Positions 1 through 61,373 of a DNA stretch of 64,000 nucleotides are shown piece after piece. The notes beneath the pieces were generated by a model that was not told the DNA's origin, did no database searches, and worked only from the letters and a program-made list of their open reading frames with translations. Source of the DNA: Microbacterium sp. SYP-A9085 (lineage in GTDB: Bacteria; Actinomycetota; Actinomycetes; Actinomycetales; Microbacteriaceae); assembly GCF_009649635.1 (NCBI RefSeq), contig NZ_WJII01000004.1, forward strand, positions 62,001-126,000. Direction: 5' to 3'. Made by a program: the position numbers and the translations under genes. Numbering within the stretch: the first letter of the stretch is position 1; each line of letters opens with the position of its first letter.

Positions 1-434
1 AGGGACCGGATCTTGCGCAGTCCACTGCGGGCGTCCGCGGACAGCGACCCCTGGCTCCAGACCCCGCCGGCGAGGTTGAGCACGGCGATCTCGGCCGGGG
101 TGAAAGTGATGTCGGCCGGCAGCGCATACTCCGCCGTGGGCACGCGGTAGCGCGCCTCGCGCAGGTCGTCGGGGTCGAGCCGGTCCCCGATCGTCTCAAT
201 CGGCACGCCCAGTCCGCGCAGGTTCTCCTTGTCCCGCTCGAACATCTTCTCGAGGGCGTCCTTGGACGCGCCCGCCTCGGACTGCTCCCGGTAGCCGGAG
301 ACGGACCCGAGGATGGCGTCCTTCGTCAGCCCCTGCTCGGTCGCCATGAGCGCCACCACGAGGTTCAGCAGCCGCTCCTCGGGCGCGCCACGCTCGTCGG
401 AGCGGGGCGCGGAAGACGTGGGTTCGGCAGACAC
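1..434 (-). CDS. pafB: PafB-type WYL-domain transcriptional regulator (C-terminus cut by window edge)
   Basis: The visible N-terminal ~144 residues begin at a GTG (432-434) and carry a winged-helix segment (EERLLNLVVALMATEQGLT, then DAILGSVSGYREQ) and the linker FTPAEIAVLNLAGGVW typical of PafB/PafC proteins; the WYL domain lies beyond the edge. PafB and PafC form the heterodimeric activator of the LexA/RecA-independent DNA-damage response in actinobacteria. The start is fixed by a -10 box TAGGAT six bases upstream, which implies a leaderless mRNA. It lies 56 bases downstream of the FKBP lipoprotein gene, on the same strand. A close PafC paralogue is possible, but first position in the pair favours PafB. 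Confidence 0.85.
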   Translation of the reverse strand, partial: MSAEPTSSAPRSDERGAPEERLLNLVVALMATEQGLTKDAILGSVSGYREQSEAGASKDALEKMFERDKENLRGLGVPIETIGDRLDPDDLREARYRVPTAEYALPADITFTPAEIAVLNLAGGVWSQGSLSADARSGLRKIRS

Positions 435-59157: not shown

Positions 59158-59769
59158 TCAATCAGCGGGCTGCGGTTGCACCGGAAGGGTGCGGGGCCTC
59201 CAACCCGCGCGATGCGCCTCGTAGGCGGCGATCCTGGCTTCGTTGCGGAGGGTGAGTCCGATGTCGTCGAATCCCTCCAGAAGCCGCCACCTAGTGTAAT
59301 CGTCGATCTCGAATCCGACCTGGAGTTCGCCGAGAGTCGCCGTGCGCGCCTGCAGGTCCACGGTGATCTGCGCACCGGGCTGGGCGGCGATCGCCGCCCA
59401 GATCCGCTCGATGTCGGGCTCGGCCACGACTCCGGTGACAAGGCCCTGCTTGCCGGCGTTGCCGCGGAAGATGTCGGCGAACTTCGGGCTCAGCACTGCA
59501 CGGAAGCCATAGTCGCGCAGCGCCCACACGGCGTGCTCGCGGCTGGAGCCGGTCCCGAAGTCCGGGCCCGCGACGAGTACGGAGGCGTTCCGGTACCGCT
59601 CCTGATTGAGCACGAAGTCCGGGTCCTGGCGCCAGTTGGCGAACAAGGCGTCCTCGAATCCGGTCTTCGTGACGCGCTTGAGGTACACCGCCGGGATGAT
59701 CTGGTCGGTGTCCACGGCGGAGCGCTGCAACGGGGCGGCGACGCCGGTGTGCGTCGTGAACTTCTCCAT
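59158..59769 (-). CDS. leuD: 3-isopropylmalate dehydratase small subunit
   Basis: 203 residues. [20 protein letters not shown] then [33 protein letters not shown] and [14 protein letters not shown] are the aconitase swivel-domain signatures. With LeuC it isomerises 2- to 3-isopropylmalate. It starts one base after the leuC stop region, so the subunits are co-translated, and ends close to murA. Confidence 0.97.
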
Positions 59770-59770
59770 G

Positions 59771-61249
59771 TCAGACCGCCTTCGCCTGGTTGGCCGCGCC
59801 GACGCGGTCCGCGGTATCGTCGAGGTCGCTCGGGCTGGACAGGGTGCCGCGCACCGCGGTGGCGGCGGCGACCAGCGGCGAGACGAGGTGGGTGCGTCCG
59901 CCCTTTCCCTGGCGACCTTCGAAGTTCCGGTTGCTCGTCGAGGCGCAGCGCTCCCCCGGCGCCAGCTGATCCGGGTTCATGCCCAGGCACATCGAGCAGC
60001 CGGCGAACCGCCATTCGGCGCCGAACTCGGTGAACACCGTGTCCAGGCCCTCGGCCTCGGCCTCCAGCCGCACCCGCGCCGAGCCCGGCACCACCATGAC
60101 CCGGACCCCATCGGCCTTGCGACGCCCTCGCACTATCGACGCGAATGCGCGCAGGTCTTCGATCCGGCTGTTCGTGCACGAGCCCATGAACACGGCGTCC
60201 ACGCGCACATCCTTCAGCGGCGTGCCGGCCTGAAGATCCATGTACTGCAGGGCGCGCTCGGCGGCGGCGCGCTCGTTCGGGTCGGTGAACTGCTCCGGGG
60301 CGGGCACCACACCGGACAGCGACACGCCCTGGCCGGGGTTCGTCCCCCACGTGACGAACGGCTCGAGCTCCGCGGCGTCGATGAACACCTCGGCGTCGTA
60401 GACCGCGCCCTCATCCGACGGCAGCGTCCGCCAGTAGGCGACCGCCTCGTCCCAGTCGCGGCCGCTCGGCGCGTGCGGGCGGCCCTTCAGGTAGGCGAAC
60501 GTCTTCTCGTCGGGGGCCACCATACCGGCGCGGGCGCCGGCCTCGATCGACATGTTGCACATCGTCATCCGCCCCTCCATGGAGAGGGATCGGATGGCGC
60601 TGCCGCGGTACTCGAGCACGTAGCCCTGGCCGCCGTTCGTGCCGATCTTCGCTATCACGGCGAGGATGACGTCCTTCGCGGTGACGCCCGGCCGCAGCTC
60701 GCCCTCGACCGTGATCGCCATCGTCTTGAACGGCTTCAGCGGCAGCGTCTGGGTGGCCAGCACGTGCTCGACCTCGCTCGTGCCGATGCCGAACGCCATG
60801 GCGCCGAACGCGCCGTGCGTGGAGGTGTGGCTGTCGCCGCAGACCACGGTGATCCCCGGCATGGTCAGGCCCAGCTGCGGGCCGACCACGTGGACGATCC
60901 CCTGGTCCTTGTCGCCGAGGGAGTGCAGGCGCACCCCGAACTCCTCCGCGTTGCGGCGCAGCGTCTCGATCTGGGTGCGGCTGGTGAGGTCGGCGATCGG
61001 CTTGTCGATGTCGAGCGTCGGCGTGTTGTGGTCCTCGGTGGCGATCGTGAGATCCAGGCGGCGCACGCCGCGTCCCTCGGCGCGCAGGCCGTCGAAGGCT
61101 TGCGGGCTCGTCACCTCGTGCACCAGGTGCAGATCGATGTAGATGAGGTCCGGCTGTCCGTCCTCGCCCTTGACCACGACGTGGTCGTCCCAGACCTTCT
61201 CGGCCAGGGTGCGCGGATGATCGGGGATCACCGAAGCGGGTGTGCTCAT
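59771..61249 (-). CDS. leuC: 3-isopropylmalate dehydratase large subunit
   Basis: 492 residues from [20 protein letters not shown] with GAGGAGAACG upstream; a much longer in-frame start was rejected. [40 protein letters not shown], and the 4Fe-4S cysteines in [14 protein letters not shown] and [13 protein letters not shown] identify the aconitase-family subunit. It sits downstream of a leucine leader peptide and attenuator at 61276-61361. Confidence 0.97.
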
Positions 61250-61275
61250 GATTGTTCGTTCTCCTCGGGGAGCGT

Positions 61276-61311
61276 GAAAGCCCACGACGACCTCCGCGAC
61301 GAGCCTGGGCT
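61276..61311 (-). terminator. attenuator terminator of the leuCD leader
   Basis: On the minus strand AGCCCA (61306-61311) pairs with TGGGCT (61279-61284), followed by TTTC. The loop contains GCTCGTCGCG (61295-61304), which can instead pair with CGCGGCGAGC (61322-61331) inside the leader-peptide codons, a 10-bp stem with one G-U. The two pairings cannot coexist without a pseudoknot, the layout of a transcription attenuator. Confidence 0.65.
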
Positions 61312-61316
61312 GAGGA

Positions 61317-61361
61317 TCAGAGCTCGCCGCGGCCGATAAGGAGAAGCCTGGCGGTCCGCAC
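61317..61361 (-). CDS. leuL: leucine leader peptide ([14 protein letters not shown])
   Basis: 14 codons from GTG 61359-61361 to TGA 61317-61319: GTG CGG ACC GCC AGG, then CTT CTC CTT ATC, and a final CTC before the stop. Four of 14 residues are Leu, three consecutive and two encoded by CTT, rare in this GC-rich genome. TACCCT lies six bases upstream of the GTG, so the transcript should start at the leader itself. Ribosome stalling on Leu codons would leave 61322-61331 free to form the antiterminator. Similar Leu leaders have been predicted for actinobacterial leu genes (family knowledge). Confidence 0.75.
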
Positions 61362-61367
61362 GGGCCC

Positions 61368-61373
61368 AGGGTA
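61368..61373 (-). promoter_or_regulatory. -10 box of the leu leader (leaderless)
   Basis: TACCCT on the minus strand, six bases (GGGCCC) before the leader-peptide GTG, within TGATACCCT. Confidence 0.55.

Follow-up and report, generated by a model that had tools for sequence, protein, structure and literature searches.

The short leader which precedes leuCD on the minus strand of the window (the whole stretch of 64,000 nt that was analysed) is probably a LEU element acting by translational attenuation, in which a ribosome halted at the leader's Leu codons would unmask the Shine-Dalgarno (SD) sequence of leuC. The element is of a known kind, the gene being new for it, and the mechanism favoured here is better supported than the one first proposed for this leader. 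The LEU element was described in 2005 for actinobacterial leuA by Seliverstov et al. (PMC1262725), who named as its contexts the leuA operons and one transposase gene.

The gene order on the minus strand is a TerC/Alx-type membrane protein gene, the leader, leuC (59771..61249; 3-isopropylmalate dehydratase large subunit, NCBIfam NF004016 with 791 bits and TIGR00170 with 741 bits) and, immediately 3’ of it, leuD (59158..59769; small subunit, NCBIfam NF002458 and TIGR00171). The ORF after leuD is presumably murA, judged by its sequence. The window's genome (G000) measures 2.92 Mb, and its closest leuC relatives in the scan belong to Microbacterium and other Microbacteriaceae.

A -10 box, TACCCT (61368..61373), lies 6 nt upstream of the GTG (61361) that opens a leaderless ORF of 14 codons (61317..61361, ending with TGA at 61319-61317); the box was recognized from the sequence and from TANNNT statistics, and the ORF from the sequence and from homologous leaders in relatives. 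Transcription would thus start at the leader GTG. In mRNA order the leader ORF is followed through its Leu run CUUCUCCUU (CTT CTC CTT, 61338..61346), which is conserved and is proposed to furnish both the sensor codons and the anti-SD strand, and through codons 10-14, which form the 5’ arm of helix P2, CCGCGGCGAGC (61322..61332). Then come the loop sequence AGCCCA (61306..61311), the 3’ arm of P2, GCUCGUCGCGG (61294..61304), the complementary strand UGGGCU (61279..61284), the SD sequence AGGAG and the AUG of leuC. The putative base stem P1 would join UUCUCCU of the Leu run (61339..61345) to AGGAGAA (61259..61265), which contains the SD. The box, the GTG, the ORF, the Leu codons, both P2 arms, AGCCCA and TGGGCT all lie on the minus strand where a sequence-only reading of this DNA had placed them, and its leaderless Leu leader ORF ahead of leuCD is borne out by relatives which keep the box, the leaderless start, the Leu run and the 11-bp stem.

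The mechanism that we propose would run as follows. With a transcript beginning at the GTG, a 70S ribosome would start on the leader at once. When charged tRNA-Leu is ample it would reach the stop codon and depart, and the Leu run would then pair with the leuC SD region (P1), enclosing the P2 hairpin and the pseudoknot and keeping leuC translation low. When tRNA-Leu is scarce the ribosome would stall on the Leu run and occupy the anti-SD strand, so that the SD would be free and LeuCD would be made. The hungry codons would in this way double as the anti-SD. The response to leucine and the control at the level of translation are what we infer here.

A regular expression (TANNNT, a spacer of 3-9 nt, then a short ORF), whose matches were then inspected, revealed homologous leaders ahead of leuC in many Microbacteriaceae, and a covariance model, R1, was built from 24 elements (alignment A2), 23 from leuC, including that of the window, and one from leuA. 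For the statistics, which ignore kinship, 138 elements were taken (55 leuC, 69 leuA and 14 second leuA) by a pattern calling for two or more Leu codons and a TANNNT box 5-8 nt upstream of ATG/GTG; both traits are partly present in this set by construction because the pattern required them. Not in the set are 12 leuA loci in which this pattern finds no leader and ten leuC loci among L003-L035 that lack the element; L083 and L084, which are duplicates, and L102, which is truncated, were likewise omitted. The gene start was shifted by SD score in 12 of the 138 elements, and L013, the frame of which is open from an ATG at 2359, was positioned by hand.

The pattern of the window leader exceeds chance. 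Among 111 high-scoring R1 matches before leuA or leuC, on which no box or Leu pattern was imposed, 97 possess TANNNT 5-8 nt upstream of model position 1, a box which lies outside the model; at the same spacing it precedes 41 of 8973 other ATG/GTG codons of the same loci. CTT makes up 277 of the 534 Leu codons in the 138 leaders as against 7 of 179 in five window genes; rare as it is in those genes, it ends the Leu run of 125 among the 138 leaders. The longest Leu run has 2-5 codons (the parser required at least two), and the distance from Leu run to stop is 6 codons in 93 of the 138 leaders.

Helices P2 and AGCCCA/UGGGCU covary. The comparison of related genomes which the sequence-only reading had suggested as a check upholds its Leu codons and stem: the Leu run is kept, and over the 24 sequences 94.7% of P2 cells are paired, with 15 cells changed on both sides, none of 500 shuffles being as high on either count. 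Two-sided changes occur in only 3 of 11 pairs, a number which 225 of 500 shuffles reach. This paired-cell test is the one used for P2; own-versus-cross pairing values were set aside, being inflated because the arms were picked for pairing. At the pseudoknot, pairing between the two strands of one element is better than pairing with a strand swapped in from another (z -6.0 for the 138 elements and -4.2 for the 69 leuA, with null controls), the effect being weak in the 55 leuC elements alone (z -1.7, p 0.046). The two helices had been regarded as a mutually exclusive antiterminator and terminator. They share no base in their arms and are compatible, since AGCCCA sits in the P2 loop, and together they can form a predicted H-type pseudoknot with loops of 10, 1 and 9 nt. 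The leader RNA of the window taken alone is not unusually stable (z -0.72, or -1.24 when 4 nt upstream of the predicted start are included).

The conserved pseudoknot would also suit a binding site for an RNA-binding protein, with the leader ORF secondary. This was the explanation favoured by the 2005 authors, who named ML1624 orthologs and left the mechanism open; mutation of the Streptomyces coelicolor leuA leader was cited by them (from Craster 1999) as having some effect, inconsistent with classical attenuation, and mutations of the Leu codons were reported without classical behaviour (PMC1262725). The leaderless ORF, the CTT which ends the Leu run in so many leaders and the prevalent spacing of run and stop point instead to translation of the leader, and we regard a protein-binding site as improbable.

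The proposed translational attenuation depends on P1. By sequence the window's Leu run could form 7 bp with the SD region of leuC (UUCUCCU/AGGAGAA). A first test with 24 elements was not significant (p 0.07). When the Leu run was set against its own SD and against swapped partners, z was -5.2 for the 138 elements, -2.8 for the 55 leuC and -3.9 for the 69 leuA; with the SD reversed as a control the values were -2.0, -2.0 and +0.9, respectively. An exact 6-mer complement exists in 60% of the 55 leuC elements, compared to 43% with swapped partners and 29% with a reversed SD region. Wider P1 regions gave z -3.3 (leuC), -2.2 (leuA) and -4.1 (all), and some of their controls were positive as well (in-gene z -3.7 for leuC at +32..61 and -3.1 for leuA at +3..32; reversed SD -2.0 for the 138). 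For the codons ahead of the Leu run against the start-codon stretch, own versus swapped, z was -2.5 in leuC and 0.0 in leuA, and a leuA control region reached -3.7. Since some controls are positive too, composition or relatedness contributes to these values, and we treat P1 as supported, not proven; the Leu-run part is the better supported one. P1 is absent from the predicted minimum-energy fold of the window leader, and forcing the fold to contain P1 and P2 costs 3.9 kcal/mol relative to the free minimum.

The consequence of a ribosome on the Leu run was computed with RNAfold, in which pseudoknots are not possible, as the accessibility of the SD averaged over elements. For the 138 elements the predicted mean rises from 0.284 in the free RNA to 0.485 when the Leu run alone is masked, against 0.308 with a mask on the next stretch, 0.291 on the P2 3’ arm, 0.322 on codons 2-4 and 0.269 on the PK strand (three of these control masks were as long as the Leu-run mask, the fourth being that on codons 2-4). 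A rise of more than 0.05 is seen in 100 of 138 elements with the Leu-run mask, and in 45, 31, 42 and 30, respectively, with the four others. With a ribosome-sized mask the leuC elements would have an accessibility of 0.51 with the ribosome at the second Leu codon, 0.34 at the stop and 0.31 when free, and the leuA leader of the window's genome would pass from 0.17 when free to 0.58 at the second Leu codon and back to 0.17 at the stop. The window's own leuC leader displays no mask effect (0.48 free, 0.50 stalled and 0.48 at the stop) because RNAfold pairs its SD with a local CUCC.

Intrinsic terminators are few in these leaders. In the window the pattern scan made no terminator call from 61361 to 61249, its two calls (61491-61467) falling within the upstream TerC-family ORF. 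The candidate hairpin of the window, with a 21-nt loop and three T in the following 8 nt, was rejected by the pattern scan and by the intrinsic-terminator rule. By the same rule a terminator is present in 4 of the 138 elements (1 of 55 leuC, 2 of 69 leuA and 1 of 14 second leuA). Downstream of the PK strand, the next 8 nt contain 1.4 T on average (131 of 138 elements, in which that strand could be located); 8-nt stretches with at least five T occur in 16 of 55 leuC, 18 of 69 leuA and 1 of 14 second-leuA leaders, and the rule recognizes a preceding stem in just 4 of the 138 elements.

This scarcity would be in keeping with Rho-dependent attenuation, where a leader read to its stop would expose a naked stretch to Rho and stalling would protect it, as has been proposed for actinobacterial cys leaders (PMC1262725). 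Rho leaves the pseudoknot and the complementarity of Leu codons and SD unexplained, and we think it unlikely. Classical ribosome-mediated transcription attenuation, with P2 as antiterminator and AGCCCA/TGGGCT-TTT as terminator, was the proposal of the sequence-only reading and could draw on the leader peptide with its conserved Leu codons and on such attenuators predicted for Streptomyces leuS (PMC1262725), but with no U-tract, a single leuC element of 55 conforming to the terminator rule, two helices compatible as a pseudoknot and a Leu run complementary to the SD instead, it finds no support and is very unlikely.

The distribution was assessed with R1 over the best 80 leuC loci of a longer list, among which L003-L035 were assigned to the Microbacteriaceae by organism names (Leifsonia was looked up). 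The element stands at 23 of these 80 best-listed loci, all within L003-L035 (23 of 33), each with E 1.1e-11 or better; 22 of the 23 are members of the model and match by construction, L013 being the non-member. It was found at none of the 47 best-listed loci L036-L082, the next best match anywhere having E 0.15. At E 0.01, R1 matches 296 of 299 genomes of the window's family (taken as Microbacteriaceae); counted by eye, about 190 of the 299 have two or more matches, about 105 have one and three have none. At E 0.001 it matches 188 of 248 genomes drawn from the order and 180 of 196 drawn from the class; the two draws overlap and include some family members. Both in the order and in the class the matches comprise leuA leaders of families other than the window's, so that the window leader is homologous to the leuA element. 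The window's genome itself carries a second copy before leuA which is 75% identical to the leuC copy over about 67 nt; the E values of the two copies are 3.8e-15 and 2.7e-14, and those of weak third to fifth matches 0.0076, 0.14 and 0.99. A search of the window stretch against Rfam 15 yielded a single unrelated weak match (E 0.44), and one of five related loci a single match (E 0.058), both far below the gathering score.

The matches fetched as loci stand before leuA or leuC (tblastn), apart from the exceptions named in this paragraph and the next. By eye, 19 family genomes had at least three matches; 15 of them were re-searched, and 17 of the 18 extra places that had no locus yet were fetched. 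Twelve precede a second, diverged leuA, one precedes leuC (L147) and one an MFS transporter gene (L160); the other three resemble coding sequence (L158, L162 and L163). Second leuA genes with the element were observed at L146, L148-L157, L159, L161 and L206; their products are 52-58% identical to LeuA of the window's genome, and their leaders often end like LLLRRHGGA. At L160 (G292:C1:3335007-3335086) a LEU-like leader, MSRVLLLRRRDGA, with a box TAGGAT 6 nt upstream, lies directly before the MFS gene (Pfam MFS_1), which possibly encodes a leucine-related transporter under the same control.

The inspection for leuB covered second matches in eight genomes of another family of the order (f17), one in a second family (f2, L207) and one match in a third (f25, L219). 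The gene lies downstream of the element at L207, at L219 and at all f17 loci but one of the 8, being identified by NCBIfam in L202 and L219 and by the visible GDGIGPE motif only in the others; at L208 leuB was not seen within the examined stretch. Of further places, L209 resembles coding sequence and L211 is interrupted by a contig end. LEU-like leaders before leuB in other families were noted at L200-L205, L207, L210 and L219 with a small conserved ORF in between, which in the four cases translated (L200, L201, L203 and L219) specifies 26-35 amino acids ending like RQALQESMDLREQGHSDD.

A further difference between family and non-family leuC loci concerns a protein regulator. According to the accessible parts of PMC4340878 and PMC8222616, NdgR and its orthologs, including LtbR of Corynebacterium, adjoin leuCD and regulate it. 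Outside the Microbacteriaceae (L036-L082) the intergenic region was seen to carry a palindrome, GATAYTGnnGTCTC-N-GAGAYGCAAG, with a divergent IclR gene. In the best-80 leuC set a strict form of it (GATA..GTCTC..GAGA..CAAG) is present upstream of leuC at 33 of the 47 non-family loci and at none of the 33 family ones. Of the remaining 14 non-family loci 10 have a looser core, as has one family locus (L034). The N-terminal motif of the regulator appears in a divergent ORF at 42 of 47 non-family and 1 of 33 family loci. We take the palindrome to be the probable NdgR/LtbR operator; its letters differ from the published S. coelicolor motif. With the L037 protein (Arthrobacter; IclR domains) as query and a threshold of E 1e-40 or better, a close homolog was detected in none of 80 family genomes, although a strongly diverged ortholog could escape this cut-off. 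Within the order, 89 of the 92 genomes that belong to other families have such a homolog (weakest E 6.9e-86), as against 0 of 7 that belong to this one.

From the Microbacteriaceae, then, the customary protein repressor of leuCD seems to have disappeared, and the RNA element may have replaced it there. This link between the element at leuC and the absent protein regulator is unexpected. Because 10 of the 33 family leuC loci are without the LEU element, the regulator may have been lost and the RNA gained in separate events. A joint reading, to which we would give an even chance, is that this family lost protein control of leuCD, namely the NdgR/LtbR-type IclR regulator with its divergent gene and intergenic palindrome, and that control of leuC passed to a copy of the LEU element from leuA, one hungry-codon RNA governing several steps of leucine synthesis. 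Standing also before leuB in other families, before second leuA genes and before one MFS transporter gene, the element would be a portable module for sensing amino acids whose sensor codons are themselves the anti-SD. Absence of the regulator from 80 of 80 family genomes together with the RNA at 23 of 33 best-listed family leuC loci would make this a clean natural handover from a protein to a cis-acting RNA. The leuC copies are in any case further examples of LEU at a second gene, and lend support to the model of leaderless leader, hungry-codon anti-SD and pseudoknot. In one genus (L106 and L110) the leader of leuC encodes a peptide, VRFGLLLLSCRDES, which recurs unchanged in leuA leaders of other genera (L093 and L101); from its sequence this leuC leader looks as if it had been copied from leuA.

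Several known systems resemble the window leader in part. Literature searches of incomplete coverage, including sources accessible in part, disclosed no LEU element or leader peptide before actinobacterial leuC or leuB. The leuL leaders (Streptomyces lividans MRFGLLLLSCRGEGL and Corynebacterium diphtheriae MNRANLLLLRRGGSQA) precede leuA and are classed, in the accessible parts of the sources, as attenuator leader peptides (PMC8079986, PMC5784534, PMC4046766); that of S. lividans is described there as transcribed leaderless and without a typical Rho-independent terminator (PMC8079986). The ilvB1NC and ilvBNC attenuators of Actinobacteria likewise have leader peptides with branched-chain codons but differ in the Rho-independent terminator of the Mycobacterium tuberculosis case, and the available text describes no pseudoknot or SD masking for them (PMC13236596, PMC11857589). 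The mycobacterial poly-cysteine ORFs (Canestrari et al. 2020, via PMC13236596) are leaderless leaders too, and their action is called translation attenuation; they differ in concerning cysteine and other operons, and the accessible part of that source makes no mention of the LEU fold. The nearest counterpart is the LEU element itself (PMC1262725). The window copy is unlike it in standing before leuCD, the published ones being before leuA, where the window's genome has a copy too; it is like it, by the wording of that paper, in its leader ORF with a Leu run, in Leu codons whose sequence is the complement of the following gene's SD (the strands of the published base stem), and in its pseudoknotted inner helices.
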